A DNA stretch of 26,122 nt from a virus. Location of the stretch: positions 1 to 26,122 of IMG/VR virus record IMGVR_UViG_3300044765_000197; one strand, given 5' to 3'. Made by a program: the position numbers and the translations under genes. The notes beneath the pieces were generated by a model. It made no database searches, was not told the DNA's origin, and saw nothing but the letters and a program-made list of their open reading frames with translations. Positions 4,719-19,645 of this stretch are shown piece after piece (within the stretch, counting starts at the first letter, position 1; each line of letters starts with the position of its first letter).

Positions 4719-5480
4719 TCAGTCCGCTGCGTGCGCGCTCGCGCTGCTGGTCAGCCCCGATTCCTCGGTGCGGACGAGGATGCAGCCGCACTCCGGGCAC
4801 GACACCACGTCGTCGTCCGCGGCCTGACGGATCACGTTCAGATCGGTGCCGGAGAGCACCATGCGGCACCCCTCGCACGTGGCGCGACGCAGCAGAGCGG
4901 CCCCGGCAGTCCTTCCGACCCGGCGCTGGTACTCCGCCATGAGCGACGGGGAGACGGAGTCGACGAGCGCCGCGCGATCGCGGGCGAGCTGCTCCCCCTC
5001 GGCGGTCGCGTCCGCGATGAGCGCCTTCGCCTCGGTGGTCAGCCGGGTGCCCTCGGCGACGGTCTCGTCGATGAGCGCCTGCTGGGCCGCCACAGCCGCC
5101 TCCGCGTCCTCGAGGCGCGCCATGATCTCGAGCTCCGCGTCTTCGAGGTCGCTGATCCGGCGACCAAGACTCGCGATCTCCTGCTCGAGGGCGACCGCGT
5201 CCTTGGGATTCTGCGTGGCCGCGAGCCGTTCCGCGTCGCGGTCGCGGCGCTGCGTCGCGAGGGCGACGTCGGACTCCACGCGCTTGAGCTCGGCCTGCAC
5301 GTCGTCGCGCGCACCGGACAGCACGGTGAGCTCGCGCAGTTGCCCCTGCCGCTGGGCGGCGAGCTCGTTGATCCGCTCCCCCTGCGCCGGGTGCGTGCGC
5401 GCGTAATCGGCCTGCAGGATGCGGCGGTCGATGTCGGCGATGTCGAGGAGCACGAGCTGGTGCGCGGGGTTGGCTTTCAC
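4719..5480 (-). CDS. Coiled-coil protein with C-terminal C4 zinc ribbon
   Basis: A 253-residue protein of the CT398/DUF164-like family. Residues about 30-175 are heptad-rich and charged, predicted as a long antiparallel coiled coil. The C-terminus carries four cysteines in two knuckles (CEGCRMVL and CPECGC, residues ~200-232), forming a zinc ribbon probably used for nucleic-acid or protein binding. The family's role is unknown; in actinobacteria it often neighbours Nif3-family and ribonuclease HI-type genes, which are not in this window. The start is the GTG at 5480: a TAGGTT -10 box seven bases before it suggests a leaderless transcript. Confidence 0.88.
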   Translation of the reverse strand: MKANPAHQLVLLDIADIDRRILQADYARTHPAQGERINELAAQRQGQLRELTVLSGARDDVQAELKRVESDVALATQRRDRDAERLAATQNPKDAVALEQEIASLGRRISDLEDAELEIMARLEDAEAAVAAQQALIDETVAEGTRLTTEAKALIADATAEGEQLARDRAALVDSVSPSLMAEYQRRVGRTAGAALLRRATCEGCRMVLSGTDLNVIRQAADDDVVSCPECGCILVRTEESGLTSSASAHAAD

Positions 5481-5543: not shown

Positions 5544-5930
5544 TCAGGCCACGACGCCGTCGACGTAGTACCACTGTCCGTCCTCGCGCACGAAGCGGCT
5601 GCGCTCGTGCAGTACTCCGCGACCGGTCGGATCCCGGTGGATCGCCTCGAACTCGACGACGCCCTCCGTGTCGAACGGGCCGCCGCCGGTCTTGCCGAGG
5701 ATGTCGAGACGCAGCCAGCGCACGTCGTCGTCGAGGTCCAGGCGTTCCGGGCGGGTGGACGGGTGCCAGGAACGCAGCAGGTACCCGGCATCACCGCGCG
5801 CGAACGCGGTGTACCGCGACCGCATCAGGCGCTCCGCGGTCGGGGCAGGACGGCCCGCGAGGATCGGCGCGCAGCACGCGTCGAACAGGTTGCCGCTGCC
5901 GCACGGGCAGCGGTCCGCCGCTGCGCTCAC
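5544..5930 (-). CDS. YchJ-family SEC-C motif protein (UPF0225-like)
   Basis: A 128-residue protein with an N-terminal SEC-C zinc motif (CPCGSG, then CC nine residues on) followed by the conserved YchJ core (RLMRSRYTAFARGD, then YLLRSWHPSTRP) and a C-terminal cystatin/NTF2-like fold ending WYYVDG. The function of YchJ proteins is not established; the SEC-C motif binds zinc. The start is GTG 5930, which overlaps the TGA (5927-5929) of the upstream aminotransferase as GTGA, so the two are co-transcribed and probably translationally coupled. Longer upstream frames run inside the aminotransferase gene and are not supported. Confidence 0.88.
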   Translation of the reverse strand: MSAAADRCPCGSGNLFDACCAPILAGRPAPTAERLMRSRYTAFARGDAGYLLRSWHPSTRPERLDLDDDVRWLRLDILGKTGGGPFDTEGVVEFEAIHRDPTGRGVLHERSRFVREDGQWYYVDGVVA

Positions 5931-7057
5931 ACGCCGATCCGGTCCAGCGCGTCGCCGAGGCGGCGCACCGTGCCGTCCACGTCGCCGAGCTTGTCCAGGC
6001 CGAACAGTCCGATCCGGAACGTGGAGAACGAGTCCGGCTCGCCGCAGTGCAGCGGCACCCCCGCAGCGATCTGCAGTCCCTGCTCCCGGAACAGCGCTCC
6101 GCTGCGCAGACCCGGATCCGTCGTGTGCACGACGGCGACGCTCGGGGAGGCGAAGCCCTCCGCCGCGACGGACGGCAGGCCCCGCTCCGCGAGCAGCGCC
6201 CGCACCCGCGTGCCGAGGTCCCACTGGGCGGCACGGAGCGCATCGAACCCGCGCTCACGCGTCTCCGCCATGAGCACGGCGTTGTGCGCGAGCGTGTCCG
6301 TGGGCATGGTCGCGTGGTACGGCGCCCTGCCCTCGCGGTACTCCTCCGCGATCCACAGCCACTTCGCCAGGTCGATCGCGAAGCTCGAGGAGGCACGCGA
6401 GGTCACCGCGTCACGGCCGGCGTCGTTGAGCATCACGTATCCCGCACCGGGGGATCCGCTCCAGCCCTTCTGCGGAGCGCTCAGCAGCACGTCGACGCCG
6501 AGTGCCTCCACATCCACCCACAGGGCGCCCGAGGCGATGGAGTCGAGCACCAGCAGGCCGCCGACCTCGTGCACCGCATCGGCGAGAGCCCTCACGTACG
6601 CGTCCGGCAGCAGGATCCCGGCAGCGGTCTCGACGTGCGGCGCGAACACGACCTCGCTGCGCTGCGCCCGGATCGCCGAGACGACCTCCTCGATCGGCAC
6701 CGGCGCCCACGCGGCCTGCACATCGTCCGAGGCCGGGCGTGCCGCGCACACCACGGTGCTCTGCGCGATGTCGCCGGCATCGAGGATCTGCGACCACCGG
6801 TAGGAGAACAGCCCGTTGCGCACCACGAGGCAGCGTCGCCCCGTGGCGAGCTGGCGCGCGACCGCTTCCATCGCGTAGGTGCCGCCCCCGGGCACGATCG
6901 CCGTCGTCGTCGCCCGGTACGCGGCGCGCAGATCGGCCTGGATGCTCTGCATCACCCCGATGAAGCGCGCGGACATGTGGTTCAGGGAGCGATCCGTGAA
7001 GACCACCGAGTACTCCAGCAGGCCCCCGGGATCGACATCGTCGTGCGGAAGGTTCAT
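5927..7057 (-). CDS. Class-V aminotransferase (alanine-glyoxylate/serine type)
   Basis: A 376-residue fold-type I PLP enzyme. The cofactor-binding loop PGGGTYAMEA is near residue 56. D172 (LVLDSIAS) should contact the pyridine nitrogen and K197 (SAPQKGW) is the Schiff-base lysine. The overall layout matches alanine-glyoxylate or serine-pyruvate aminotransferases, or short SerC-like enzymes; the amino donor cannot be assigned. I place the start at ATG 7057 (MNLPHDD), because the frame upstream runs into the tRNA and its promoter. CAGGGT, six bases before the ATG, could be a leaderless -10 box. It forms a two-gene unit with the YchJ-like gene and is divergent from the tRNA used as the prophage insertion site. 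Confidence 0.88.
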   Translation of the reverse strand: MNLPHDDVDPGGLLEYSVVFTDRSLNHMSARFIGVMQSIQADLRAAYRATTTAIVPGGGTYAMEAVARQLATGRRCLVVRNGLFSYRWSQILDAGDIAQSTVVCAARPASDDVQAAWAPVPIEEVVSAIRAQRSEVVFAPHVETAAGILLPDAYVRALADAVHEVGGLLVLDSIASGALWVDVEALGVDVLLSAPQKGWSGSPGAGYVMLNDAGRDAVTSRASSSFAIDLAKWLWIAEEYREGRAPYHATMPTDTLAHNAVLMAETRERGFDALRAAQWDLGTRVRALLAERGLPSVAAEGFASPSVAVVHTTDPGLRSGALFREQGLQIAAGVPLHCGEPDSFSTFRIGLFGLDKLGDVDGTVRRLGDALDRIGV

Positions 7058-7099: not shown

Positions 7100-7142
7100 G
7101 CGCCTATAGCTCAGTTGGTAGAGCACGTCGTTTACACCGACG
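7100..7142 (+). tRNA. 5' part of tRNA-Val(TAC), interrupted at the prophage junction
   Basis: The acceptor 5' strand GCGCCTA (7100-7106), D-arm (GCTC 7109-7112, loop AGTTGGTA, GAGC 7121-7124) and anticodon arm (CGTCG 7126-7130, loop TTTACAC, CGACG 7138-7142) are all intact. The anticodon TAC (7133-7135) reads valine codons. Downstream, a 3' acceptor strand would have to read TAGGCGC and none occurs nearby. A weak T-arm can be drawn (GGTCC, loop TTCGACC, GGCTC, with one mismatch and one wobble), but the following bases pair with only two or three of the seven acceptor positions. The 3' half has been replaced by phage DNA and probably lies at attR outside the window. Confidence 0.8.
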
Positions 7143-7148
7143 ATGCAG
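7126..7148. other. Probable attL junction
   Basis: tRNA structure is perfect up to 7142 and fails beyond roughly 7148, where sequence becomes the coding 3' end of the repressor. The junction therefore lies in this interval. The exact crossover and core length cannot be set without attR or attB. Confidence 0.6.
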
Positions 7149-7407
7149 GTCCTTCGACCGGCTCCGGGGAGCCCTCACCCGTCATGAGCCACACGCGATC
7201 GACGCGCGTGCGCAGGACGATTCGGTTGATCGTCGCAACGTAGTCCCGCGGCTTCTTGCCCGCCTCCCAGTTCGTCCAGGACGACGGCGGAAGACCGCAC
7301 TCCACGGCAGCCTCCTTGACGTTCCAACCCATGCGCCACCGGATGAGAGCAAGGCGTGCTCCGAAGGTGTCGACGCTGGGGACCCAGCTTGTCATTGGTG
7401 CGCTCAT
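7132..7407 (-). CDS. Phage repressor, XRE-type HTH, ending inside the tRNA
   Basis: A 91-residue protein with a Cro/CI-type HTH at residues ~12-65 (FGARLALIRWRMGWNVKEAA, ECGLPPSSWTNWEAGKK), the expected immunity repressor. The ATG at 7407 is preceded after seven bases by TATCGT (7420 to 7415), with TTGCGC as -35 at 18-base spacing, so the mRNA looks leaderless; an in-frame ATG at 7395 is an alternative. Its final codons (SSV-stop) and TAA stop (7134 to 7132) are antisense to the anticodon arm of the host tRNA-Val. In the non-integrated phage the gene must therefore end differently. This matches repressors of integration-dependent immunity systems such as mycobacteriophage BPs, where attP lies in the repressor 3' end and the viral form has a longer, unstable C-terminus. 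The viral form is not visible here. Confidence 0.85.
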   Translation of the reverse strand: MSAPMTSWVPSVDTFGARLALIRWRMGWNVKEAAVECGLPPSSWTNWEAGKKPRDYVATINRIVLRTRVDRVWLMTGEGSPEPVEGPASSV

Positions 7408-7414
7408 GCGTCAC

Positions 7415-7444
7415 ACGATAGGACATTCCGCGCATCTCGCGCAA
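7415..7444 (-). promoter_or_regulatory. Repressor promoter (leaderless)
   Basis: On the minus strand, -35 TTGCGC (7444 to 7439), an 18-base spacer and -10 TATCGT (7420 to 7415), followed by seven bases and the ATG of the repressor. Transcription would start at or next to the ATG. Confidence 0.5.
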
Positions 7445-7472
7445 GCACCCATAAATCGCGCATGATTCGACT

Positions 7473-7491
7473 AGTGGTGTTTGACACCACT
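7473..7491. promoter_or_regulatory. Palindromic operator overlapping the -35 box of the rightward promoter
   Basis: A perfect 8-bp inverted repeat, AGTGGTGT-TTG-ACACCACT. Bases 7481-7486 read TTGACA, a consensus -35 box; the best -10 is TTCACT (7505-7510) at 18-base spacing, seven bases before the ATG at 7518. A repressor bound here would block the rightward promoter. CGCGCAT recurs at 7429-7435, 7457-7463 and 7494-7500 and may mark further sites. Confidence 0.65.
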
Positions 7492-7517
7492 TGCGCGCAT
7501 ATGCTTCACTCTGGGGC

Positions 7518-7715
7518 ATGACGCAGGAACTGGTGCTTATCACCACTTCGGATCTGGCCCGGGCTCTGGGCGTCGACGTATCGACAGTTCGACGGTGGGT
7601 GTCGAGCTCGAAGATCACGCCCAGCCTGACCACGCCGGGCGGACACCACCGGTTCGATCTGTCGCAAGTGCGCGAGCAACTGCGCGCGCTCGCCGAAGGC
7701 GGTGAGCAGCAGTGA
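7518..7715 (+). CDS. MerR/excisionase-type HTH protein
   Basis: A 65-residue protein that is almost entirely one winged HTH of the MerR/BldC type (TTSDLARALGVDVSTVRRW, then GGHHRFDLSQV wing). Divergent from the repressor, it is the first rightward early gene, so it could be the Cro-equivalent or the excisionase/recombination directionality factor. Sequence alone does not separate these. I choose ATG 7518 rather than the upstream TTG at 7491, which lies inside the operator; the -10 box seven bases upstream predicts a leaderless message. Its TGA overlaps the GTG of the next gene. Confidence 0.8.
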   Translation: MTQELVLITTSDLARALGVDVSTVRRWVSSSKITPSLTTPGGHHRFDLSQVREQLRALAEGGEQQ

Positions 7716-7930
7716 CTGGCGACGTGCTCAGCTTCGTCGTGGCCGTCGTCGCGCTGGGTCTGGCCATCACGAGCTTCGTCGTCTCCCGCCGAAATGAGCG
7801 GCGCGAGCGGCTCCACCGCCAGTGGATGGCTAGTCAGCTGGCGAGGAGCTCGGCTCTGCGCCAGCAACTACACGAGGCGGCCGCGGAACGCGAACGACGC
7901 GCTTCGTCTCGAACGGAGCAGTCACGATGA
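7712..7930 (+). CDS. Small membrane protein
   Basis: A 72-residue protein starting at GTG 7712, overlapping the previous TGA (GTGA). Residues ~5-25 form one hydrophobic helix (LSFVVAVVALGLAITSFVV), followed by an Arg/Glu-rich cytoplasmic helix (RRNERRERLHRQW) probably forming a coiled coil. No family recognised. The last 101 bases overlap the 3' end of the convergent minus-strand gene, so the C-terminus is constrained by both frames or one gene is shorter than drawn. Confidence 0.55.
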   Translation: MTGDVLSFVVAVVALGLAITSFVVSRRNERRERLHRQWMASQLARSSALRQQLHEAAAERERRASSRTEQSR

Positions 7931-8354
7931 TCGTGACGCTGCCAGGCAAGTCGTCGCCGTTCGGCTTGATGGAGATGCTTCCCACGTCCTCGCCGGGTTC
8001 CGCGATCCCGAATGTGTTGTCACGTGCCGCCCAGTTCATGAGGCCGCCGCGGTCCAACCGGAAATGGCACTTCACGTCGCCGGTGAACCACAGCCGGTAC
8101 CAGTGCTCCTGTCCGATGAAGGCGTCGTACTCGAGCTCGAACGAGATGGAACGCTGCCTGCGATCCTCTTCCGCTGCCTCCCGGTCTTCCTCGATCAGTG
8201 CGCGATCCTCTTCGCGGAGCCTCTGTGCCTCGGCCCGGTCCCGCTCGCGCTCTACGACACGGCGGCGCTCCACGCGCCAGGTGTGCACCAGCGCCAGGCC
8301 GGCAATGACCGCAGCGCTCAGCGCGATCCAGTTCTCCGCAAGCCACTTCCACAC
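7830..8354 (-). CDS. Membrane-anchored coiled-coil protein, candidate lysogenic-conversion gene
   Basis: A 174-residue protein: an N-terminal membrane helix (ENWIALSAAVIAGLALVHTW, residues ~7-26), a highly charged helix (about residues 28-68, RVVERERDRAEAQRLREED) and a C-terminal domain rich in aromatic and beta-prone residues (~70-155). The GTG start at 8354 follows a stop codon directly in frame and has a GGAAAGGG-like ribosome binding site upstream. The plus-strand frames opposite are Ser/Arg-rich shadows. It is the only leftward gene besides the repressor, so it could be expressed in the lysogen and serve in exclusion or host conversion; this is inferred from orientation only. Confidence 0.65.
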   Translation of the reverse strand: MWKWLAENWIALSAAVIAGLALVHTWRVERRRVVERERDRAEAQRLREEDRALIEEDREAAEEDRRQRSISFELEYDAFIGQEHWYRLWFTGDVKCHFRLDRGGLMNWAARDNTFGIAEPGEDVGSISIKPNGDDLPGSVTIIVTAPFETKRVVRVPRPPRVVAGAEPSSSPAD

Positions 8355-8453
8355 CTACGGCACCACCCTTTCCTCGTCCCTCGCGACGATCGTAGAGGTC
8401 AGCGGTCCTCTCACGCTTCCCGAGACCACCGGCATCCTCCACGGCGCCGGTGA

Positions 8454-8492
8454 GAGCGCCGGGGGCGTCCCCCCCATGCGGCCCCGGCGCTC
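8454..8492. terminator. Inverted repeat, possible terminator or RNA structure
   Basis: A perfect 11-bp inverted repeat, GAGCGCCGGGG at 8454-8464 and CCCCGGCGCTC at 8482-8492, with a further G/C-run pairing inside the loop. It sits in the 160-base gap between the leftward membrane gene and the long rightward operon. There is no U-tract. Confidence 0.4.
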
Positions 8493-8514
8493 AGTTTCAC
8501 GACGGGATCTCCTC

Positions 8515-8637
8515 ATGACTCCGTGGGAGGTCGCGATCTCCGTGGTCGTCACCGCATACGGCGTCGCGATCGCATCCCTCGGCCTCGTCGTCGGCCTCCA
8601 CCTCCGCCGCGCTCGCCGCGGTGCGGACGAGCCGTGA
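8515..8637 (+). CDS. Tiny membrane protein
   Basis: A 40-residue protein with a single membrane helix (VAISVVVTAYGVAIASLGLVVGLHL) and a basic tail (RRARRG). An in-frame ATG at 8476 lies within the preceding hairpin, so I favour 8515. The TGA overlaps the GTG of the following gene. Function unknown; first gene of the long overlapping operon. Confidence 0.55.
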   Translation: MTPWEVAISVVVTAYGVAIASLGLVVGLHLRRARRGADEP

Positions 8638-8885
8638 GCGAGCAGTCCGGGGCGCCAAGCCCCGCATACGACGACCTCGGAGGCATGCACGCCCCCACCG
8701 GACGCCGTCGCCGGTCCTACCGGTACCCCTCCCGGACGATCGACCCCAACCCGGGGAAGGTCTGCCAGAACCACATCTTCGACCCACAGTCCGGCTGGTG
8801 CAGCTGCGGCACCCGCGACGACGGCCAGCTCGCCCCCGGATCCCCGGCTGAACGCGAAGCAGCAGCCCGCAAGCTCACTCCCTGA
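8634..8885 (+). CDS. Small hypothetical protein with Cys/His cluster
   Basis: An 83-residue hydrophilic protein starting at GTG 8634 (GTGA overlap). An N-terminal basic patch (GRRRRSYRY) is followed by a cluster C-x2-H ... C-x-C (VCQNHIF, WCSCG), which could bind zinc. No named family recognised. Confidence 0.6.
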   Translation: MSEQSGAPSPAYDDLGGMHAPTGRRRRSYRYPSRTIDPNPGKVCQNHIFDPQSGWCSCGTRDDGQLAPGSPAEREAAARKLTP

Positions 8886-8900
8886 CCACGAGGAACCACC

Positions 8901-9089
8901 ATGGACCTTCCCCGCCCCGTCCACCGCTCCGAGCTCCGCCCCCGCTTCACCGACGTGATCGCCGTAGGAGCCGTTCTGAGCGTCCCGTTCGTCCTCGCCG
9001 TACTCCCGGTGCCTGCCGCCGTCGTTGTGGCGCTCAGCGTGGCCGTGGCGTGCACCGTGGCCTACTTCCGGCTTGGGCGTCGCGGCTGA
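8901..9089 (+). CDS. Small membrane protein
   Basis: A 62-residue protein with a soluble N-terminus and two closely spaced hydrophobic stretches (VIAVGAVLSVPFVLAVL and AAVVVALSVAVACTVAYF), probably a hairpin of two membrane helices, ending in a basic tail. A GAGGAA ribosome binding site lies six bases before the ATG. The TGA overlaps the next ATG (TGATG). Confidence 0.65.
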   Translation: MDLPRPVHRSELRPRFTDVIAVGAVLSVPFVLAVLPVPAAVVVALSVAVACTVAYFRLGRRG

Positions 9090-9814
9090 TGGGAACCATC
9101 TGCCCCCCGGACCACGCCCACGCGTCGACCGACAAGCTGACCTGCTACGCCGCGCACGGCTGCCGCTGCGACGAGTGCGGCGAGTTGTCCCGCGCGTACG
9201 GCTACTGGCGTGACCACATGAACGCCTCCGGCCACGAGCTCACGATCTCCTCCCTCGGCACACAGCGCCGCATCCAGGCGCTCATGTGCCTCGGCTGGTC
9301 CATGCACCAGATCGCGCTGCGCCTCGACGACCGCCGCGGCAACATCCGCCGGCTCCTCCTCACCGACACGATCACCCGCAAGCTCGCCAAGCGCGTCGCC
9401 GCGGTCTACGACGAGATGTGCATGACCCGCCCCGAGGGCACCACCCGGGCGGAGCACGCCTCCATCGCCCGGATCCGCATCTTCGCCCGCCGCAACGGGT
9501 GGGTGCCGCCGCTCGCCTGGGACGACATCGACAACGACGAGCGCCCCGCACTCGTCGAGCACGTCGCCTACGCCACCCAGGTCGACACCGTCGCCGTCGA
9601 CCTCGCCCTCACCGGCAACCGCACCGTCCGCCTCACCCCCGCCGAGCGCCGCGTCTGCGTCCGCCAGCTGCACTCCCGCCGCTGGTCCGACAAGGCGATC
9701 GCCACCCTCATCGGCTGCAACGAGAAGACCGTCACCCGGATCCGCGAGGAGCTCCACCTCGACCCCTGGAACGACGCCGAGCAGCTCACCACGCGAGCGG
9801 ACGTCGCCGCATGA
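9089..9814 (+). CDS. Double helix-turn-helix regulatory protein
   Basis: A 241-residue protein beginning with a cysteine motif (TCYAAHGCRCDECGELSRAY, residues ~18-37), a module I associate with actinophage regulatory proteins. A first HTH follows around residues 60-90 (LGWSMHQIALRLDDRRGNIRRL) and a second near the C-terminus (WSDKAIATLIGCNEKTVTRI, ~205-225). Both resemble sigma-factor region 4/Trp-repressor-type HTHs. It probably controls phage transcription, but which promoters is unknown. Its ATG overlaps the upstream stop and its TGA overlaps the next ATG. Confidence 0.75.
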   Translation: MGTICPPDHAHASTDKLTCYAAHGCRCDECGELSRAYGYWRDHMNASGHELTISSLGTQRRIQALMCLGWSMHQIALRLDDRRGNIRRLLLTDTITRKLAKRVAAVYDEMCMTRPEGTTRAEHASIARIRIFARRNGWVPPLAWDDIDNDERPALVEHVAYATQVDTVAVDLALTGNRTVRLTPAERRVCVRQLHSRRWSDKAIATLIGCNEKTVTRIREELHLDPWNDAEQLTTRADVAA

Positions 9815-10038
9815 GCCCTGCACCCGCCATCCGCTGGCTCATCCGTCGCGAGCACATCCGCGCCACCCGCTTCGGCGAACCCCTCGCCAACAGCACCGCC
9901 TGGGCCGTCACCCCTATCACCGGCCGCCACCCGAACCGCCACCGCATCACCGGCCCCACGTTCTTCCCCTCCCGCGCCGCAGCGTTCCGCTACGTCGACC
10001 AGGAGATCCGCCGCACCTACCGAAAGAAGACCCCCTGA
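9811..10038 (+). CDS. Small hypothetical protein
   Basis: A 75-residue basic protein (AIRWLIRREHIRATRFG, C-terminal RRTYRKK). ATG overlaps the upstream TGA (ATGA) and its stop overlaps the next ATG (TGATG). Family not recognised. Confidence 0.6.
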   Translation: MSPAPAIRWLIRREHIRATRFGEPLANSTAWAVTPITGRHPNRHRITGPTFFPSRAAAFRYVDQEIRRTYRKKTP

Positions 10039-10313
10039 TGACCGTCCACGCCCCCAACATCGAAGCAGTCCTCGAACACACACCAGCCTCCGCACCCGCC
10101 CGCCTCGTCCACCTCGCGCTCGCCGCGACCGCCGACGAGAACGGCCACGCCGAGACCACGCTGCACTCCCTCGAGCACATCACCGGCATGCGAGCCGACT
10201 GGGTGGCGTCGATCCTCGGACAGAACGAGCTCGGCACCATCCTCATCCCCGCCGCCGTGTCATTCGCCGACGACGTCGTCAAGGTCGACCTCCTCAAGGC
10301 GGTGCGCTCGTGA
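10038..10313 (+). CDS. Hypothetical protein, winged-helix-like
   Basis: A 91-residue protein whose central part (ARLVHLALAATADENGHAETTLHSLEHITGM) resembles the first half of the winged-helix domain of phage replication initiators, as in the gene two positions downstream. No wing is evident. It might be an accessory replication or regulatory factor. Start-stop overlaps on both sides. Confidence 0.55.
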   Translation: MTVHAPNIEAVLEHTPASAPARLVHLALAATADENGHAETTLHSLEHITGMRADWVASILGQNELGTILIPAAVSFADDVVKVDLLKAVRS

Positions 10314-10654
10314 ACATCCGGCAGGTCGAGGAGTTCCTCCGCAGCAGGGGCGTCAGCGAAGACGAGATCACAGCAGAGCGCGCACGCCTCGACCAGCGCG
10401 CGGCGGCGATCGACGACCTCACCGTCGCCGCGACCGCCGCGACGCAGGCAGAGACCCCTGAGGAGGCGGTCCTGCACGGGCTGGACGTGATCACGATCTA
10501 CCGCGCACAACTGGGCGAGATCTCGCCGACGGGCATGGACTTCGCGCAGCAGGTCGCTGCACGCCTCGCTCACGCCGTCATGACCATCTGGAGTCTGACC
10601 GATCAGATCACCGCTCTGGAGGCCGAGATCGCGCGCCTGAGGCGGGGTCGTTGA
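10310..10654 (+). CDS. Hypothetical helical protein
   Basis: A 114-residue, almost entirely helical protein starting at GTG 10310 (GTGA overlap), ending in a short coiled coil (ITALEAEIARLRRGR). No recognised family. Confidence 0.6.
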   Translation: MNIRQVEEFLRSRGVSEDEITAERARLDQRAAAIDDLTVAATAATQAETPEEAVLHGLDVITIYRAQLGEISPTGMDFAQQVAARLAHAVMTIWSLTDQITALEAEIARLRRGR

Positions 10655-11490
10655 TGGGCGGCGGCGCCGACCGGCCGACCCGGATCCGCAACCAGTACGG
10701 GAAGTTCGCACAGATCCCCGAGGTCCTCGTCCGCGACCCAAAGGTTTCCGACCGCGCCATCCGCATCTATGCCCTCCTGTGGACGTACAGCGGCGAGAAG
10801 GGCCGCAAGGCGTGGCCGTCACGCCGCGAGATGTCAGAGTGCCTCGAGGTGTCCGTCTCGACCATCGACCGGGGCCTCCGCGAGCTCGAGGAGCGCGGCG
10901 CGATCGCCGTCGAATCTGACTACAACGGCGACCGTCAAACGTCCAACATCTACACGATCCTGGTGCTCCCCGACGAGGCCCCGAAGAGCCGGAAAGTTGT
11001 CCACAGGGGCCGCAAATCTGACGCCCCTCGGCTGTCCACAGGGGCCGCAAATTTGACTACCCCGGGGGCCGCAAATCTGACGCACCAGGAACAAGAACCA
11101 CAGGAACAAGAGATCTCTGGTCCAGTCCCTGAGGTCACCACCGGAACCGCTGTGGATAACTCGGACCGGACTGGACGGGCATCATCGGGGGTCACTCCTC
11201 GGGCGCTGTCACGCACTCACGGGCTGCCGCTGCAGCCGGCCGACGTGTTCGCATCCTGCGGCCACCAGCTGCCCGACCATCTCGACGACGCCGGCCTGCA
11301 ACAGCTCGCCGACGAGATCATCGCCAAGGCCAGCAGCCGAGTCCTCGACCCGACCGCGTACGTCATCCGCGCACTCCGGATCCGCGGCCTCAACGACGAC
11401 CTCGCCGACAAGGGCCGGTGGCTCGCCCGCGCCGAGGTCATCGCCGACGAACGAGGCCTCCGCACGCTCGGCGCGGGAGGGATGTTCTGA
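10654..11490 (+). CDS. Winged-helix phage replication initiator (DnaD/GP O-like role)
   Basis: A 278-residue protein. Residues ~15-105 form a winged helix (VSDRAIRIYALLWTYSG, WPSRREMSECLEVSVSTIDRGLRELEERGAI) of the type in phage replisome organisers. A low-complexity linker (EQEPQEQE) follows and a C-terminal helical domain starts near residue 190. The segment encoding the linker carries iteron-like repeats and DnaA boxes, as in lambda O where the origin lies inside the initiator gene. I take ATG 10654, overlapping the previous TGA, over TTG 10651. It probably binds the embedded origin and recruits host helicase; no phage helicase is seen in the window. Confidence 0.75.
   Translation: MGGGADRPTRIRNQYGKFAQIPEVLVRDPKVSDRAIRIYALLWTYSGEKGRKAWPSRREMSECLEVSVSTIDRGLRELEERGAIAVESDYNGDRQTSNIYTILVLPDEAPKSRKVVHRGRKSDAPRLSTGAANLTTPGAANLTHQEQEPQEQEISGPVPEVTTGTAVDNSDRTGRASSGVTPRALSRTHGLPLQPADVFASCGHQLPDHLDDAGLQQLADEIIAKASSRVLDPTAYVIRALRIRGLNDDLADKGRWLARAEVIADERGLRTLGAGGMF
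10996..11159. other. Candidate phage replication origin inside the initiator gene
   Basis: Three copies of GGGGCCGCAAATCTGAC (second copy one base different) lie at 11006-11022, 11041-11057 and 11065-11081. The first two are each preceded by a DnaA-box-like 9-mer, TTGTCCACA at 10997-11005 and CTGTCCACA at 11032-11040; TTGTCCACA is the preferred DnaA box of high-GC actinobacteria. A third box, TTATCCACA, is on the minus strand at 11159 to 11151. Copies 1 and 2 are 35 bases apart and so lie in different codon phases, which shows the repeat is conserved as DNA rather than as protein. Confidence 0.65.
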
Positions 11491-11942
11491 TGCGCACCGC
11501 CATCCCGTCATCGCTCGAAGTCACCGGCCGCGTTCACCCCGACGCCGACACCTGGATCCTGTACTTCGCATGGCCCACGAACCCGCTCCCGATGAACGGC
11601 AGCCGCGGCGGCAACTGGCGTCCCGCCGCCCGCAAACGCGCAGCCATCCGCAACCACGTCTTCCAGATGGCCACCTTCGCCCGCATCCCCGCCCTCGGCC
11701 GGATCCGCGCCCAGGTCACCTGGTGGGTCACGTCGACCGCGAAGACCCGCGACCCCGACAACCTCGCCCTCCTCGAGAAGCCCATGTTCGACGCGCTCGT
11801 CGACGCCGGCATCGTCACCGACGACCGCCCCGACCTCATGGACAAGCCCCGCGCCGTCATCCGCCCCATCGCGGACTCCGCCGGCCTCATCACCGCCCCC
11901 GGCTTCACCCTCACCATCACCCGACTCGGAGACCCCGCATGA
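11490..11942 (+). CDS. RusA-family Holliday junction resolvase
   Basis: A 150-residue protein with RusA hallmarks: a central strand leading to RDPDNLALLEKPMFDALVDAGIVTDD (about residues 90-115), giving the conserved aspartates that bind metal (DPDN and the DD after the helix). RusA dimers cut four-way junctions, here probably resolving phage recombination or replication intermediates. The usual N-terminal PPSxN-like loop appears as PLPMNGSRGG. ATG overlaps the previous stop (TGATG) and its stop overlaps the next ATG. Confidence 0.85.
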   Translation: MRTAIPSSLEVTGRVHPDADTWILYFAWPTNPLPMNGSRGGNWRPAARKRAAIRNHVFQMATFARIPALGRIRAQVTWWVTSTAKTRDPDNLALLEKPMFDALVDAGIVTDDRPDLMDKPRAVIRPIADSAGLITAPGFTLTITRLGDPA

Positions 11943-12394
11943 ACCTCGAGCTCGTCCACTACAGCCGCGAACCGTTCACCCTGAACCGCGCGATCGTCTA
12001 CAACCAGACCGGGTTCGGCAACGGCAAGCCCGACGGCCTCTGGGTCACCACCGATACCCCGGACGGGTGGGCCGACTGGTGCCGCCTCGAGAACTGGAAC
12101 ACCGCCGGCCTCGCCCACCGCACCGCACTCACCCTCACCCCCGGCGCGAACGTCCTCCACCTCGAGACCGTCGAAGCGCTCCGCGCGTTCAACAAGACCT
12201 ACGCCGGCCACCCCGACGCCGGCCCCCTCAGCCGCCATTACATCAACTGGGCCGCCGTCGCCGACATCCTCATCGTCCCCTACCAGTGGCAGGCACGACT
12301 CGACCTCGAGCTGCTCTGGTACTACGGCTGGGACGTCGCCTCCGGCTGCATCTGGAACCTCGACGCCCTCGCGCTCGCCGAGGTGCCCGCATGA
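11939..12394 (+). CDS. Phage protein, possibly ADP-ribosyltransferase-like
   Basis: A 151-residue protein widespread in phages by my recollection. It starts LELVHYSREPF, then RAIVYNQ, KPDGLWVTTD, and ends with a tryptophan-rich DLELLWYYGWDVASGCIWNLDAL segment. An early H-Y-S, a following aromatic strand and a later acidic position recall the ART/Tpt1 fold, but the catalytic residues are not certain and I treat this as a weak structural guess. It lies in the early operon between RusA and the ASCH protein, with 4-base overlaps on both sides. Confidence 0.6.
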   Translation: MNLELVHYSREPFTLNRAIVYNQTGFGNGKPDGLWVTTDTPDGWADWCRLENWNTAGLAHRTALTLTPGANVLHLETVEALRAFNKTYAGHPDAGPLSRHYINWAAVADILIVPYQWQARLDLELLWYYGWDVASGCIWNLDALALAEVPA

Positions 12395-12867
12395 GGATCC
12401 TCACCGTCCGCCAGCCCTGGGCCTGGGCGATCATCCACGGCGGCAAGAACGTCGAGAACCGCACCCGCAACATCGCCGGCACCTACCGCGGCCCCGTCGC
12501 CATCCACGTCGCGACCGCCTGCCCGCTGCTCGACGACGACTGCAAGGTCAGCGACCTCCTCGGCAAGCCCGTTCGCACGATGAAGGACTTCCAGCCCATC
12601 GATGGCGGTCACATCATCGGCGTGGTCGACCTCGTCGACGTGCACCGCGTCATCGAATCCGCCGGCCGTGCTCACTGCGAGATCACTGAGGCTCCGACCG
12701 ACCCAGCCGTATCCGGCGCCTGTTCGATCTGGGCGGAACGCGACGCGCACCACCTGTTGCTCGCGAACCCGCGCACGCTCGCCGAGCCGATCCGGTACCG
12801 CGGCGCTCTCGGCCTCCGCGAGCTCGACGCTGACACCGTCGCCCGCATTGAGGCGGCGATCGCGTGA
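12391..12867 (+). CDS. ASCH-domain protein
   Basis: A 158-residue protein with the ASCH signature at the N-terminus (MRILTVRQPWAWAIIHGGKNVENRTRN), the YRGPVAIHVAT strand and IIGVVDLVDVHRV, then a C-terminal YRGALGLREL strand. ASCH domains have a PUA-like barrel and are thought to bind RNA or modified nucleotides; some hydrolyse N4-acetylcytidine. The exact substrate here is unknown. ATGA overlap upstream, GTGA overlap downstream. Confidence 0.85.
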   Translation: MRILTVRQPWAWAIIHGGKNVENRTRNIAGTYRGPVAIHVATACPLLDDDCKVSDLLGKPVRTMKDFQPIDGGHIIGVVDLVDVHRVIESAGRAHCEITEAPTDPAVSGACSIWAERDAHHLLLANPRTLAEPIRYRGALGLRELDADTVARIEAAIA

Positions 12868-13124
12868 ACGTCGAGAAGGAGATCGCCGAGATCGACCAGA
12901 AGGTCCGCCGGCAGATCAACGCCAGCGCCCGCGAGGCACTGCTCCGCATCGGCGTCGACCCCGACGAGGTCGAGCGTGAGGAAGCCGCTCGCCGTCGCGA
13001 GGAGCTGCTCGCCCCGTACGTCGCCGCCGGCGCCGCACTCCGCATGATCTGCGACGTCGTGGCCGAGACCATCAATGCGGCCGTAGCAGCGTTCGAGCGT
13101 GGCTTCAACGGAGGCGGACGATGA
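12864..13124 (+). CDS. Hypothetical helical protein
   Basis: An 86-residue, Glu/Arg-rich helical protein from GTG 12864 (GTGA). The first half is likely a coiled coil (EKEIAEIDQKVRRQINASAREALL). No recognised family. Overlaps its neighbours by four bases. Confidence 0.6.
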   Translation: MNVEKEIAEIDQKVRRQINASAREALLRIGVDPDEVEREEAARRREELLAPYVAAGAALRMICDVVAETINAAVAAFERGFNGGGR

Positions 13125-13549
13125 CCGTCTGGCACCACTCGCGGCGCGGCCGCATCGAAGGCGACCTGCTCCGCCAGGACGACACCTGGGCGCACATCCG
13201 CCTCACGGCTCCGACCGACCTCGCAGACCGCGCCCTGCGCCCGACGCAGCATGACGGCTTCGAGGCAGGCGAGACCATCACCGTCCGCCGTGAGCACCTC
13301 ACCGAGGTCATCCGGCCCACCACCGCACAGCTGCTCGACTTCGCCGCCCGCCACCCCGGCAAGCACGACTCCCGCGTCGACCAAGCCATCCGCGACGAGC
13401 TCCGCATCACCCCCACCCGCTACATCCAGCTGCTCACCGACGCGATCCGCACCCCCGAAGCCCTGCAGCACGACCCACAGACGACCCGCCGGCTCCTCCG
13501 CGAGGAAGCCGCTGCGGAAGCCGCACGCGCTCGCCGCGTCCACCCCTGA
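13121..13549 (+). CDS. Protein with DUF3263-like C-terminal domain
   Basis: A 142-residue protein with two parts. The N-terminal ~65 residues (WHHSRRGRIEGDLLRQDDTWAHIRL) look like a small beta barrel. The C-terminal part (LLDFAARHPGKHDSRVDQAIRDELRITPTRYIQLLTDAI, then HDPQTTRRLLR) resembles the actinobacterial DUF3263 domain, a small HTH-like module with the T-R-Y-x-Q-L-L motif. The role is unknown; DNA binding is likely. Confidence 0.7.
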   Translation: MTVWHHSRRGRIEGDLLRQDDTWAHIRLTAPTDLADRALRPTQHDGFEAGETITVRREHLTEVIRPTTAQLLDFAARHPGKHDSRVDQAIRDELRITPTRYIQLLTDAIRTPEALQHDPQTTRRLLREEAAAEAARARRVHP

Positions 13550-13560
13550 AAGGAACCACC

Positions 13561-13719
13561 ATGACCCCCGTCGAACTCGTCCGGTGGGCGCTCGCCGTGC
13601 TCGTCTGCGTCGTCGTGCTCGCCGTGATCGCGCTCCTCATCGGAGCCACGATCGCCGGCATCCGCAACGCCAACCGCAAGGCCAAGCAGCAGCTGCCGAA
13701 CGACCACCAGATCCTCTGA
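13561..13719 (+). CDS. Small membrane protein
   Basis: A 52-residue protein with one long hydrophobic helix (residues ~7-33, ALAVLVCVVVLAVIALLIGA) and a basic C-terminal tail (RNANRKAKQQ). An AAGGAA ribosome binding site lies a few bases upstream of the ATG. No family recognised. Confidence 0.65.
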   Translation: MTPVELVRWALAVLVCVVVLAVIALLIGATIAGIRNANRKAKQQLPNDHQIL

Positions 13720-13746
13720 CCCGCCCGACACCCCGAAGGAACCACC

Positions 13747-15231
13747 ATGGCCACGAAGTACGACCCCACCACCGCCGACCCCGGCCAGATCGAGAAGATC
13801 CCCGCCGGGCAGATCGTCATCGACCCCAACGTCCGCAAGGACATCCGCCGCGACCCCAGCTTCGTCTCCTCGATCCGCGTGCTCGGCTTCCAGCAGTACC
13901 CCGTCGGCTACCGCGACGGCGACCAGGTCCACATCACCGTCGGACAGCGCCGCATCAGCGCCGCCCTCGAAATCGGGTGGGACGTCGTCCCCATCGTCAT
14001 CAAGCCCCGCCGCGACGCCGAAGCCGACCGCATCGAGGAGCTCCGCCTCATCGAGCAGATCGCCGAGAACGAGCAGCGCGCACCCCTCACCCCCGCCGAG
14101 CTCGCCGCCGGCTACAAGCAGCTCGCGCTCCTCGGCGTCACCGACGAGCAGATCGCCCGCAAGACCAACGCGCCCAAGACCACCGTGCAGACCGCGCTCG
14201 CCGTGGCCGCATCCGACGTCGCCACCGCGGCGCTCGAAGCCCGCCCGATCACGCTCGAGCAGGCGGCGCTGCTCGTCGAGTTCGAGGACGACCCCGCGGC
14301 CATCGAAGCCATCACCGAAACCCTCGCCGAGCGCCCCGAGCAGGTCGAACACACCGCCGCCCGGATCCGCAAGGACCGCGAGGTCGCCGCCGCCGTCGAC
14401 GCCAAGGTGAACGAGCTCGAGCAGGCCGGTTGGTTCGTCCAGCGCGAGGAGAGCAGCTACGGGTGGAAGGCGCCCGCCGGCACCTACACGCTCCGCCACC
14501 TGTACCGCGCCGGCGACCCGAACGAGGAGCAACTCCTCCCCGAGGACGTCGCCGAGCTCGATCAGCGCCATGCGGTCGTCTACCCCACCCCCTACCGCGA
14601 CGAACTCGTCGAGGCCCGCTACTACATCGGCAACCCCACCGACCAGGGACTCGAGATCTTCGACCACGCCAAGCCCGCCGCTGGGAAGGGCGAACTCACC
14701 GAGGAGGAGAAGGCGGCCCGCCGGCAGAAGCGCGCCGACAAGGCCGACATGATCACCGCCACCGCAGTCCGCCGCGCCTGGATCCGCGACTTCCTCACCC
14801 AGAAGACCGCCACCAAGATCCTCACCGCCCCCGGCATGCCCCGCTGGATCACCCACGCCATGTTCCAGACCGCCGACTGCCTCGGCCACAACCAGCGCGA
14901 CGGCAACGCCCGCGACCTCGCCTGGGAACTCCTCGGCCTCGACATCCCCTCCACGAAATACGCCTACCAGTCCCGCAACGCCTCCGCCCAGTTCATCAAC
15001 GACCACCCGAACCTCGCCCTCGCACTCACCGCCGCCTACGCGATCGCGCTCGCCGAAGACGTCCTCGGTGACCCGAAGCACTACTGGGCGGGAACACAGC
15101 CGGCTGAGCTCGTCCCCTACCTCGAGCAGCTCGCCGAGTGGGGATACACGCTGTCCGACGTCGAGCAGCGCCTCGTCGACTCCCGCCGTGACGCATTCGC
15201 TGCGGCCCGGGCGAAGGAGCTCGCAGCGTGA
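13747..15231 (+). CDS. ParB/Spo0J-like DNA-binding protein
   Basis: A 494-residue protein. The N-terminal ParB/sulfiredoxin-like domain has the conserved arginine motif GQRRISAALEIGW (near residue 70) and box ENEQRAPLTPAELAAGY (residues ~108-125). It is followed by the ParB HTH (LLGVTDEQIARKTNAPKTTVQTAL, ~130-155). The ~300-residue C-terminal extension is unusual for ParB and not recognised. No ParA-type ATPase is nearby, so plasmid-style partition is unlikely; phage ParB-like proteins may act as CTP-binding clamps, nucleases or regulators. A GAAGGAACC site precedes the ATG. Confidence 0.82.
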   Translation: MATKYDPTTADPGQIEKIPAGQIVIDPNVRKDIRRDPSFVSSIRVLGFQQYPVGYRDGDQVHITVGQRRISAALEIGWDVVPIVIKPRRDAEADRIEELRLIEQIAENEQRAPLTPAELAAGYKQLALLGVTDEQIARKTNAPKTTVQTALAVAASDVATAALEARPITLEQAALLVEFEDDPAAIEAITETLAERPEQVEHTAARIRKDREVAAAVDAKVNELEQAGWFVQREESSYGWKAPAGTYTLRHLYRAGDPNEEQLLPEDVAELDQRHAVVYPTPYRDELVEARYYIGNPTDQGLEIFDHAKPAAGKGELTEEEKAARRQKRADKADMITATAVRRAWIRDFLTQKTATKILTAPGMPRWITHAMFQTADCLGHNQRDGNARDLAWELLGLDIPSTKYAYQSRNASAQFINDHPNLALALTAAYAIALAEDVLGDPKHYWAGTQPAELVPYLEQLAEWGYTLSDVEQRLVDSRRDAFAAARAKELAA

Positions 15232-15311
15232 TCGGGGAGATCATCCTCGCCGTGATCGTGTTCGTCGTGCTCGTCGCGATCGTGGCGCTCAACGTCTGGC
15301 TCGAGCGGTGA
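15228..15311 (+). CDS. 27-residue membrane peptide
   Basis: Starts at GTG 15228, overlapping the ParB-like gene stop (GTGA), and ends at TGA 15309-15311, overlapping the GTG of the next gene. The product MIGEIILAVIVFVVLVAIVALNVWLER is almost entirely one membrane helix with charged ends. Perfect coupling on both sides is the main argument that it is a real gene. Confidence 0.55.
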   Translation: MIGEIILAVIVFVVLVAIVALNVWLER

Positions 15312-15520
15312 GCCGCGGCCCGTACCGGCGCGCACCCCGCCGGCACATCAGCGAAGCGACCCACCGCGTCGGCGACATCATCACCGTCGGCGCCACCCGG
15401 TGGCTCATCCAGCAGATCACCGGCAAGGACGTCGTCCTCGAAGCCACCAACACCCTCGCCGGCATCGTCTGGCGCACCACCCTCACCAACCTCCCCAACC
15501 CGAACAAGGAGCTCCAATGA
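15308..15520 (+). CDS. Small hypothetical protein, beta-barrel-like
   Basis: A 70-residue protein from GTG 15308 (GTGA). A basic N-terminus (RGPYRRAPRRH) precedes a pattern of short strands (VGDIITVGATRWLIQQI, KDVVLEATN, IVWRTTL) that suggests an SH3-like barrel. Family not recognised. Stop overlaps the next ATG. Confidence 0.6.
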   Translation: MSRGPYRRAPRRHISEATHRVGDIITVGATRWLIQQITGKDVVLEATNTLAGIVWRTTLTNLPNPNKELQ

Positions 15521-16956
15521 GCAGCAGCGACCTCTTCACCGCCGACTACCCCCACGGCACCCCCGAAGGCTTCGACGGCCCCGACGGGCATGACGGATGC
15601 CGCGGCGGCGCATGCCCCGGCGCCGACATGTGGGGCCTCTCCTGCAAGCGAGCCAAGCAGCTCAGCCGCAGCGACTACCAGTACCAGAAGCTCGCCGCAC
15701 AGGGCCTCACCCCCGCAGCGATCGCCGACGAGCTCGGCCTCGTCCCCACCGGTGCGACCGCTGCCCCGGTGACGAAGCGCGCACCCAAGCCCAAGCCCGC
15801 CGACCGCGCCGCCGCCAAGAAGGCCGCGAAAGCCGAAGTCGCCGCAGCGTTCGCAGTCGACGAGGAGCTGCTCGACAACGGCCCCGACACGAACCTCAGC
15901 GACCAGCACGACGCGGGATACACCGAGGTCATGGATGACAGCGTCGGGCTGCAGGAGCAGATCCAGACGCTCCTCCCGCAGATCGAGCCCGAGATCGCCG
16001 CCTACCTCGGGCGTCCCGGCGAGCTCACCGCCATCTCCATCGATGTGCAGGGTACCGAAAGCTCGGTCGAAAACCCCACGCCGGCCGCAGCACCTACGCC
16101 GAAGGAGATCCGCACCTGGGCAATCGAACGCGGCTACGAGGTCAAGCCCATGGGCAAGCTCCCGCAACACATCATCGACCACTACTGGGAGACCCACGGC
16201 CTCCTTGGCCGGCCCGCCCACTACGCCCCCGCCAAGGTGGACCCGGACACCGACCAGGTGGACACCGAGACCCCCGCAGCGGCCACGATCGTCCCCGAAC
16301 CGGACGGCCGACGCCCCGAGTGGGCCCACGTCACGCTCACCGAAGACCTCGCCCGCGCCCAGACCGAACGCGACGCGCTCGCCGAAGAACTCGAAGAGAC
16401 CAAGGGCGAGCTCACCCGAGCCCGCGGCCTCGCCGCCCGCCTCGAGGAAGAACTCGCCCGCGACCGCGAGGAGCACGCCGCGGAGATCTCCGACCTCCAC
16501 CTCCAGCTCAGCGGCAGCCACCACGGCATCCAGCAGCGCATCCAGCAGCTCGAGGAATCCATCGCATCGCTCGAGCAGGACGAGCGGATCCGCGCATGGG
16601 AGCTCGTCACCAGCCACCGCGCCTTCGCAGGATGCCACGACGAGGAAGCCCCGCTGATCACCAGCATCCTCAAGCGCCTCAACGAGCTCACCAACCAGAA
16701 CGAGGCCAGCACGATCGCACGCCTGTCCAGCGCGCTCGAACTCACGATCCGGAAGTGGGCCGCCGAACGCGAACGCGGCGACCACCTCGCCGAAGTCCTC
16801 GCCGCTAAAGACTGGCTCGATCAGATGCGCCGTGAAGAGACGCACCGGCGACTGGCGGCGATCACGGACCGCATCCCCGCCACCCCCGACGACGACGGCA
16901 TCCAGCGCCCCGGACTGGCCCGCCGTATCCGCCGCGGATGGATGACCGGCCGATGA
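15517..16956 (+). CDS. Protein with embedded Lsr2-like DNA-binding domain and coiled coil
   Basis: A 479-residue multi-part protein. The N-terminus has a Cys cluster (CRGGACPGADMWGLSC) and a short HTH-like segment (LTPAAIADELG). An Ala/Lys linker (KPKPADRAAAKKAAKAE) follows. At residues ~192-228, EIRTWAIERGYEVKPMGKLPQHIIDHYW matches the C-terminal DNA-binding domain of Lsr2, where the R-G-R minor-groove hook is replaced by M-G-K. Residues ~271-354 are a long coiled coil, and the C-terminus is basic (RRIRRGW). Lsr2 silences AT-rich foreign DNA in actinobacteria, so a phage relative could counteract or mimic it. That function is inference. Confidence 0.75.
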   Translation: MSSSDLFTADYPHGTPEGFDGPDGHDGCRGGACPGADMWGLSCKRAKQLSRSDYQYQKLAAQGLTPAAIADELGLVPTGATAAPVTKRAPKPKPADRAAAKKAAKAEVAAAFAVDEELLDNGPDTNLSDQHDAGYTEVMDDSVGLQEQIQTLLPQIEPEIAAYLGRPGELTAISIDVQGTESSVENPTPAAAPTPKEIRTWAIERGYEVKPMGKLPQHIIDHYWETHGLLGRPAHYAPAKVDPDTDQVDTETPAAATIVPEPDGRRPEWAHVTLTEDLARAQTERDALAEELEETKGELTRARGLAARLEEELARDREEHAAEISDLHLQLSGSHHGIQQRIQQLEESIASLEQDERIRAWELVTSHRAFAGCHDEEAPLITSILKRLNELTNQNEASTIARLSSALELTIRKWAAERERGDHLAEVLAAKDWLDQMRREETHRRLAAITDRIPATPDDDGIQRPGLARRIRRGWMTGR

Positions 16957-17741
16957 CACCCGACACCGATCACATCGCCACCGCGCTCGCCGCAGTCGCC
17001 GACACCGCCGATCCGGTCACGATCCAGGACATCATCGCCCTGGTCGACGAGCTCGCGATCGCCTCCTCCCCCACACCCCGATCCACCATCACCCGGCCGG
17101 CGCTGCTCACCATGCTCCGCGACGCCGTCGCCCCCAACCTCGGATCCACCGGGGCAGGGCGCGGCGCCGGCCGCAGCATCCCCATCGACGCCGGCGCCCT
17201 CACCCTCTGGGAAGACGTCACCGGCCGCATCGAAGCCCTCCACGAGGACCTCGAGGGCGAAGCACCCGTGACCGGGTCACACGAGCAGATCCTCCTCGCC
17301 TGGTCCCGCGAGCTCCTCGCCGCAGCCAACAGCCCGCACGGCCTCAACCAGGACGCGATCGACTACGCCCACCACCGCGTCGCCCGCATCCGCAACCTCA
17401 TCCGCGACCACTTCGACCCGCCCCGCATCGGCGAGATCCTCGGCGCCGCCTGCCTCGACTGCGGAGAGACACAGGTGCTCCTCCTGATCGACGGCGAAGA
17501 GATCCCCGCCCCTGCCGTCATCACAATCCGCCGCGGCAACGACCCCCTCATCGTCCACTGCCGCGTCTGCGCCGAGACCTGGTCCACCGAAGACCTCGAA
17601 CTCCTCGACCGCTTCCGCTGGGCCCAACGCCGCACGGAGCGGATCCACGACCTCACCACCCCCCTCAACGACGACGACTGGCACCACATCCGCCTCGAGC
17701 TCCGCGACAACGCCGCCCCGAAGAACAGGAACCACGCATGA
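16953..17741 (+). CDS. Hypothetical protein with CxxC pair
   Basis: A 262-residue protein. The N-terminal helical part contains a Gly/Arg-rich turn (GAGRGAGRSIPIDAGALTLWEDV) that I associate with a common actinophage family of unknown function. The C-terminal half has two C-x2-C knuckles (CLDCGE and CRVCAE, residues ~167-207) forming a probable zinc ribbon. I use the ATG at 16953, which overlaps the previous TGA; an in-frame ATG at 16938 would overlap by more. Role unknown. Confidence 0.7.
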   Translation: MTPDTDHIATALAAVADTADPVTIQDIIALVDELAIASSPTPRSTITRPALLTMLRDAVAPNLGSTGAGRGAGRSIPIDAGALTLWEDVTGRIEALHEDLEGEAPVTGSHEQILLAWSRELLAAANSPHGLNQDAIDYAHHRVARIRNLIRDHFDPPRIGEILGAACLDCGETQVLLLIDGEEIPAPAVITIRRGNDPLIVHCRVCAETWSTEDLELLDRFRWAQRRTERIHDLTTPLNDDDWHHIRLELRDNAAPKNRNHA

Positions 17742-18064
17742 CCCGCTACATCACCATCACCAGCCAACGCTTCCCGACCGACTACGACCGCGCCTTCCTC
17801 GTCGAGCTCACCGACAACCACGGCACCGTGAAAGCCGAAGGCACCTACGCACAGATCACCGACCTCCTCACCAAGCTCAACAGCGACACCAACACCGAGC
17901 CCAACAACGACGACTTCGCCCACGACCGAGCCGGACGACTCCGACGCATCCACGACCTCCTCAGCAGCCTCGACTTCGACCACACCTTCCCCCCGGACAC
18001 CGCCTGGGGAGCCGTCCTCCGCGAAGCACTCGCGCTCGCCGCAGAGGACGGAGGCCAGGCATGA
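17738..18064 (+). CDS. Hypothetical protein
   Basis: A 108-residue acidic protein, starting MTRYITITSQRFPTDYD, alpha/beta in pattern. No recognised family. Overlaps neighbours by four bases on both sides. Its coding strand is extremely C-rich, like the preceding genes and unlike the next one. Confidence 0.6.
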   Translation: MTRYITITSQRFPTDYDRAFLVELTDNHGTVKAEGTYAQITDLLTKLNSDTNTEPNNDDFAHDRAGRLRRIHDLLSSLDFDHTFPPDTAWGAVLREALALAAEDGGQA

Positions 18065-18240
18065 CCAAGGTCGTGCTGCTCGGCGGACCCTTCGATCGCC
18101 GAGAGATCGACATCCGACGGGAGCCTCCGCGCTTGGAAGTCGCAGGGAGGATCTACGAGCGGATCAATGACCCAGAAACGGGTGCGTCTCTCGGCGCCTA
18201 CGTCATCGCAGATCGCACGGATGGGACGGAGGAGCGATGA
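18061..18240 (+). CDS. Small hypothetical protein
   Basis: A 59-residue protein reading MTKVVLLGGPFDRREIDIRR and ending in ADRTDGTEER. ATG overlaps the previous TGA and its TGA overlaps the next ATG, so it fills an otherwise empty slot in the operon exactly. A short alternating pattern (LLGGPF, EVAGRIYERI, GAYVIAD) suggests a small beta fold. Base usage is less C-biased than upstream genes, hinting at a separate origin. Confidence 0.65.
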   Translation: MTKVVLLGGPFDRREIDIRREPPRLEVAGRIYERINDPETGASLGAYVIADRTDGTEER

Positions 18241-19099: not shown

Positions 19100-19211
19100 C
19101 CCGACAGTCACACCCCGCGACACGCCGCGGAGGTGCGCGCTCGCCGTGTGACGCCCGAAATTCGTGTTACAGTTTCGGCGCGCGGTAGAAGTGTTTCTAT
19201 CGCCAGGACAG

Positions 19212-19239
19212 ACGCCCTGAGCCCATCGGCTCGGGGCGT
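19212..19239 (+). terminator. Strong hairpin, probable intrinsic terminator
   Basis: A 12-bp stem, ACGCCCTGAGCC at 19212-19223 and GGCTCGGGGCGT at 19228-19239, with one T-G wobble and loop CATC. It is followed by TCGTCGTT. It would end transcripts of the early operon or a short leader RNA. Confidence 0.6.
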
Positions 19240-19284
19240 TCGTCGTTAAGGGGAGAGCGCGTCGTGGGTGGTTCCCGACGAGCA

Positions 19285-19318: not shown

Positions 19319-19333
19319 CCCGAGGAGGTAGCG

Positions 19334-19639: not shown

Positions 19640-19645
19640 CTGCTC

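Follow-up and report, generated by a model that had tools for sequence, protein, structure and literature searches.

When a prophage enters a host tRNA gene through the end of its own repressor gene, does host sequence decide where the repressor stops, and what then becomes of the tRNA? IMGVR_UViG_3300044765_000197, a virus contig of 26,122 bases, raises both questions; all of it (positions 1-26,122) was analysed here and is referred to as the window. Bacterial DNA extends from position 1 to about 7100, and phage DNA runs rightwards from about 7146. The bacterial part carries, by Pfam, a CT398-type coiled-coil/zinc-ribbon gene and a class V aminotransferase gene; the latter shares 75-79% DNA identity with three Microbacteriaceae genomes and does not lie beside tRNA-Val in the nearest genomes compared. 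On the phage side, a Pfam and PHROG profile scan gave the repressor, a MerR/excisionase-like gene, a replication initiator, a ParB-like protein, the portal, and the major head protein. The prophage occupies about 7146-26122, and the right edge of the window falls within the head genes, so the far prophage end, with attR, the integrase, and the phage's own attP, lies outside. Among the window proteins scanned by profile there was no integrase, and ARAGORN found no phage tRNA in the 19 kb of phage DNA in the window. A first-pass annotation, made from the sequence alone, had expected the integrase at the far end; this prediction is supported, and in relatives the integrase lies at attR or downstream.

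The left junction is confirmed (Table 1). The left edge of the prophage interrupts a host tRNA-Val(UAC) gene and leaves its 5' part intact, with G1 at 7100 and the anticodon stem formed by 7126-7130 and 7138-7142 (CGTCG/CGACG). Twenty tRNA-Val(TAC) genes from Microbacteriaceae and related taxa have the 5' half and anticodon arm in common with it. This match ends at tRNA position 46 (7145), and after ATG (7143-7145) the sequence departs, continuing as CAGGTCCTTCGACC. ARAGORN finds no complete tRNA at the junction, where the T-arm and the 3' acceptor strand are absent. The first-pass description of an otherwise host-type tRNA-Val(TAC) therefore stands for the 5' half and the anticodon arm, but the gene is incomplete; what that description missed is that the tRNA is destroyed without being rebuilt. 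The host tRNA-Val is left unreconstructed at the very junction bearing its 5' half, as in tRNA-dependent lysogeny, and its loss implies a phage-borne tRNA-Val(UAC). The border between host and phage lies somewhere within 7131-7145, in the shared core, and one end cannot fix it. Neither 54 genomes of the nearest genus nor the best matches among 400 family genomes yielded an unoccupied attB with the same anticodon stem, and exact-pattern scans of viral contigs gave no match to the tRNA-Val core, the phage side of the junction, or an attR-like tRNA 3' half.

Table 1. Features of the attachment junction and the adjoining immunity region in the window.
Feature	Coordinates	Strand	Basis
Host aminotransferase class V gene, chromosomal side of the attachment site	5927..7057	-	Pfam PF00266, E 3.2e-8
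5' part of host tRNA-Val(UAC), positions 1 to about 46, lacking the 3' half	7100..7145	+	Sequence; 20 tRNA-Val(TAC) genes; ARAGORN
Anticodon loop TTTACAC, anticodon TAC at 7133-7135	7131..7137	+	Sequence
TAA stop of the repressor, antisense to U33-U34-A35, probably host-supplied	7132..7134	-	Sequence; host-supplied stops in five rebuilt relatives
Prophage form of the predicted integration-dependent immunity repressor, 91 aa, ending GEGSPEPVEGPASSV-stop	7132..7407	-	HTH/XRE profile matches; homology
Minimal attP/attB shared core, minus strand CATCGTCGGTG, tRNA positions 46-36	7135..7145		tRNA-Val match and phage coding frame; exact extent needs attR
Candidate operator: perfect inverted repeat AGTGGTGT-TTG-ACACCACT in the interval separating the divergent genes	7473..7491		Repeat; motif scan
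Divergent small HTH_17/MerR-like gene (excisionase/Cro-like), first rightward phage gene	7518..7715	+	Pfam PF12728, E 3.1e-8; PHROG 66 excisionase, E 2.5e-8
Candidate operator, second copy with 1 mismatch, immediately within the divergent gene	7530..7546	+	Motif scan

The leftward gene that ends at this junction is, as proposed in the first pass, an XRE repressor (PHROG 2328 'transcriptional repressor', E 6.6e-21; Pfam HTH_31). Its reading frame crosses attL and ends inside the host tRNA, with the core inside the frame, which is the arrangement of integration-dependent immunity. The proposed antisense stop was likewise found, the TAA of the 91-aa frame being the reverse complement of tRNA positions 33-35. 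Related repressors are encoded by Arthrobacter phages Popper and Elesar (58-59%) and by Brujita (gp34, about 46%), with more homologues in Gordonia phages, in Schnabeltier, and in M. abscessus prophages, for whose repressors GenBank notes place attP within the immunity repressor; the window repressor was not found in the nearest genus. The geometry suggested in the first pass is supported, and so is homology to Brujita gp34 and other integration-dependent repressors. The two copies of GTGGTGnnnnnCACCAC in the divergent region, with 0 and 1 mismatches, are likely repressor operators. Two additional matches to this motif (1 and 2 mismatches) occur in host DNA.

No close complete relative of the window phage emerged from pattern scans of viral contigs or from a head-protein search, in which a single 6-kb contig accounted for the close relatives of the major head protein, and a nucleotide search of annotated phages with the window gave only short matches. 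Within 12380-12520, about 130 bp match unrelated records, namely a faecal phage and the Mycobacterium phages Sejanus and Mask, at 82-90% identity, far above the remaining phage DNA.

Related repressor loci came from one scan of bacterial genomes (13) and one of viral contigs (12), and at many of them the repressor frame enters a host tRNA in antisense; since the same geometry recurs in many related prophages, the window junction is not a product of chance. L062, whose repressor is 67% identical, has the same attL arrangement, with tRNA-Arg. The window is a single metagenomic contig, which leaves room for an assembly chimera of host and phage reads at 7145/7146; this we consider extremely improbable, as the join coincides, both in the repressor frame and within the tRNA, with that of the isolate genomes of Leaf141 and Rathayibacter.

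For five prophages with both ends present (Arthrobacter Leaf141, Rathayibacter, Microcella, Tersicoccus, and Mycolicibacterium canariasense) attP was rebuilt. The prophage repressor stop is absent from the rebuilt attP in 5/5, and the free-phage form is 8-41 residues longer. In Leaf141, attP reads GGATTAC and attL GGATTAG, and the repressor ends ...KPLD in the prophage versus ...KPLDYKVGGSAEVLAFPLRREHFADLPLEIAA in the free form; in Rathayibacter VKM Ac-2630, whose two ends lie on separate contigs, the respective endings are ...DPSD and ...DPSDYLARVTQLRPAA. In both, one host anticodon base makes TAG from the TAC of attP. Microcella pacifica changes attP TGG to prophage TGA (...DGL versus ...DGSWVAPVRRLADYSRERNQLGA), and Tersicoccus Bi-70 changes TGT to TGA, its free form being 41 residues longer. 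In M. canariasense the prophage stop is a host TGA further downstream, and the free form ends RRPPLASVSFAA. A sixth prophage (L064/L077), trimmed at the core and without host flank, gives a free form ending DYKAVVSDLTAHRLARAAS. The tails of the five rebuilt free forms mostly end in small residues (IAA, PAA, FAA). The C-terminal residue of free-phage repressors is A in 11/15 and the last two are AA in 6/15, although several are close kin, so that these counts overstate the independent evidence. Popper attP, CCTTTGGATTACAAGGTTGGCGATTCGG, is almost identical to the Leaf141 rebuild, and the rebuilt free forms thus agree with actual free phages. In a Microbacteriaceae genome (G071), a Brujita-like integrase adjoins a long-tailed repressor (...SLLVSDLYADRAA) on one contig (L075, 869-1189); this appears to be an unrecombined attP arrangement within a bacterial assembly, representing a free or episomal phage or a defective element. 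The switch suggested in the first pass, in which integration shortens the repressor, accordingly has its counterpart in the relatives, in all five of which the prophage stop is missing from attP and replaced by a longer tail often ending in AA; for the window phage, the C-terminal switch and proteolysis of the long form are predicted from homology.

It could instead be that TAA lies inside the common core and is present in attP as well, so that integration leaves the repressor C-terminus unchanged and only the tRNA breakage is real. The phage-side anticodon stem (7138-7142) equals the host stem exactly, which gives a shared block of at least 11 bp that may be longer, and in M. canariasense the shared core spans the whole anticodon loop. 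Moreover, the window stop lies at tRNA positions 33-35, rather than 35-37 as in the Arg cases, so a shared core could in principle include it. We nevertheless judge this reading unlikely. The prophage stop is missing from attP in every relative with both ends, the short prophage forms are similar in length while every free form is longer, and the short-core cases begin host sequence at position 35. With the exchange in that same register, the window would be host sequence from position 35, and its TAA (35-33) wholly host-derived.

Relatives with a short core, 6 bp of GGATTA or AGATTA together with scattered matches, fail to restore the host tRNA. Both non-restoring rebuilt prophages, Leaf141 and Rathayibacter, as well as L064/L077, have tRNA-Arg(UCU) adjoining the integrase, the Leaf141 gene being partly masked. 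In the Leaf141 and Rathayibacter genomes the host tRNA-Arg(UCU) is split in two halves, one at each prophage end, so that a full-length match exists only in the phage copy. Popper and Elesar, as free phages, also carry tRNA-Arg(UCU) beside the integrase, and altogether 15 of 16 related integrase loci have it, a tblastn count that leaves out 'win' rows, in which the query was several proteins joined. The three tRNA-restoring rebuilt prophages, by comparison, showed no tRNA gene next to the integrase. A host-made stop together with a phage-only tRNA-Arg(UCU) in the two non-restoring relatives indicates that integration-dependent immunity and tRNA-dependent lysogeny are, as far as their sequences tell, fused at one crossover there. 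All short-core relatives sequenced have tRNA-Arg(UCU) and none tRNA-Val, and annotated phages, when searched for a tRNA-Val(TAC) gene, yielded for the most part tRNA-Lys and unrelated phages.

The most plausible reading of the window is a further non-restoring case, in which both the tRNA and the stop differ. On this reading a core of such length does not suffice to restore the tRNA; the host tRNA-Val(UAC) gene is split, and the phage would have to bring a tRNA-Val(UAC) with it. The junction might also be simply a broken tRNA-Val, with no phage tRNA-Val(UAC) beside the integrase, given that many tyrosine-integrase phages use tRNA genes and that the host of this metagenomic record is known from the virus record only. 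We hold this to be quite improbable: Leaf141, Rathayibacter, and L062 have the same unrestored attL with intact repressors, a matching tRNA accompanies the short-core prophages, and the window repressor and early genes appear intact.

Parts of the same arrangement occur elsewhere. In Microbacterium phage Min1 (L085), ARAGORN places a tRNA-Arg(tct) next to the integrase (4854-4929); Min1 was previously given 0 tRNAs and, in a table of the same paper, called lytic (PMC7302621). A different XRE repressor just upstream ends ...QPKDYKAAVSDLTAYRAAKAAG, and the att/tail module therefore looks exchangeable between repressor types. Two further loci (L086 and L087) have a GGATTAC or AGATTAC att motif, tRNA-Arg(tct), and related integrases, but other upstream genes; the L087 repressor ends ...SQPSDYSADHRAPVVSLFSRRELARVAAAH. 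These two loci suggest that the device is common in Actinobacteria.

Taken together, the window probably represents the attL of a temperate actinophage that joins integration-dependent immunity and tRNA-dependent lysogeny at one crossover. Infection would begin with a long repressor whose tail, judged from relatives, resembles ssrA-type tails. The integrase would recombine attP with the anticodon region of tRNA-Val(UAC), replacing the phage 3' end of the repressor gene by the antisense of the host tRNA, in which the anticodon loop would provide TAA. The prophage would then make the short 91-aa repressor, and the free phage a longer, tailed one. The short form would shut the divergent promoter, the site of the two GTGGTGnnnnnCACCAC copies. 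With host tRNA-Val(UAC) gone, its function would pass to a phage tRNA-Val(UAC), which should be encoded next to the integrase at attR; the other prophage end should read CACCGACGATG followed by the tRNA-Val 3' half ending TAGGCGC. We lean, by a modest degree, towards a single checkpoint, in which the anticodon-loop crossover both writes the repressor stop, so that the degradation tail is lost, and destroys a host tRNA for which the prophage then substitutes. If so, immunity would be on only at the correct site, the cell would survive losing the prophage only through clean excision, and the window would represent, with tRNA-Val and TAA, a variant of the device seen elsewhere with tRNA-Arg and TAG.

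Such an arrangement would tie superinfection immunity, the choice of integration site, and the cell's dependence on the prophage to one recombination event, and a stop codon read off the host anticodon would be a natural check for integration in the right gene. It also suggests why some actinophages have a single tRNA gene beside the integrase and share a ...DY... repressor tail. The cultured phages Popper, Elesar, and Min1 are systems in which both halves are testable.

Integration-dependent immunity was reportedly described by Broussard in 2013 for the mycobacteriophages BPs, Charlie, and Brujita. In these phages attP lies inside the repressor gene, as the core does in the window, and bacterial sequence at attL brings a stop that shortens the prophage repressor, as it probably does here; their free-phage repressor adjoins the integrase and its long form ends in small residues, features that in the window phage would fall outside the contig with attP and the tail. 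However, such canonical systems rebuild the tRNA at an attachment junction, and the window does not. For BPs, proteolysis of the ssrA-type repressor tail has been shown (PMC4557955), and M. abscessus prophages also have integration-dependent immunity (PMC9934374). The first-pass annotation suggested a separate instance; the class as such is not new, being known from mycobacteriophages, Gordonia phages, and M. abscessus prophages.

The second device, tRNA-dependent lysogeny, was described for Fionnbharth, in which a phage tRNA-Lys replaces the host tRNA (Guerrero-Bustamante and Hatfull 2024, PMC10865867). It shares with the window a short core in the anticodon region and an unrestored host tRNA, and with the window's relatives a matching phage tRNA. 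Fionnbharth integrase mutants are still immune, its repressor being independent of integration (PMC10865867), whereas the window crossover would also end the repressor. The isotypes in that study are Lys, Ile2, and Leu, as against Val(UAC) in the window and Arg(UCU) in its relatives. Popper, Elesar, and Min1 resemble the proposed device in that a related integrase adjoins tRNA-Arg(UCU) and the repressor reads through ...DY... into a tail; they differ as free phages using another tRNA, Min1 also having a repressor of different type. No description of such a switch in these three was found in the literature searched. Integration-dependent immunity and tRNA-dependent lysogeny are each already known singly, and one paper, alone among the open-licence papers searched in containing both terms, discusses them as different systems (PMC10865867). 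A single crossover doing both, or an anticodon base making a stop, was not found described in the open-licence literature, which is weak evidence of novelty. The nearest precedent for the combination is M. abscessus prophiT36-2, with its impaired tRNA-Thr (PMC9934374). There, prophiT36-2a/2b likewise pair integration-dependent immunity with an impaired tRNA for which a phage tRNA-Thr is thought to compensate, but the two prophages lie in tandem, have near-complete cores, and were presented as an exceptional tandem case, not as one coupled device (PMC9934374).
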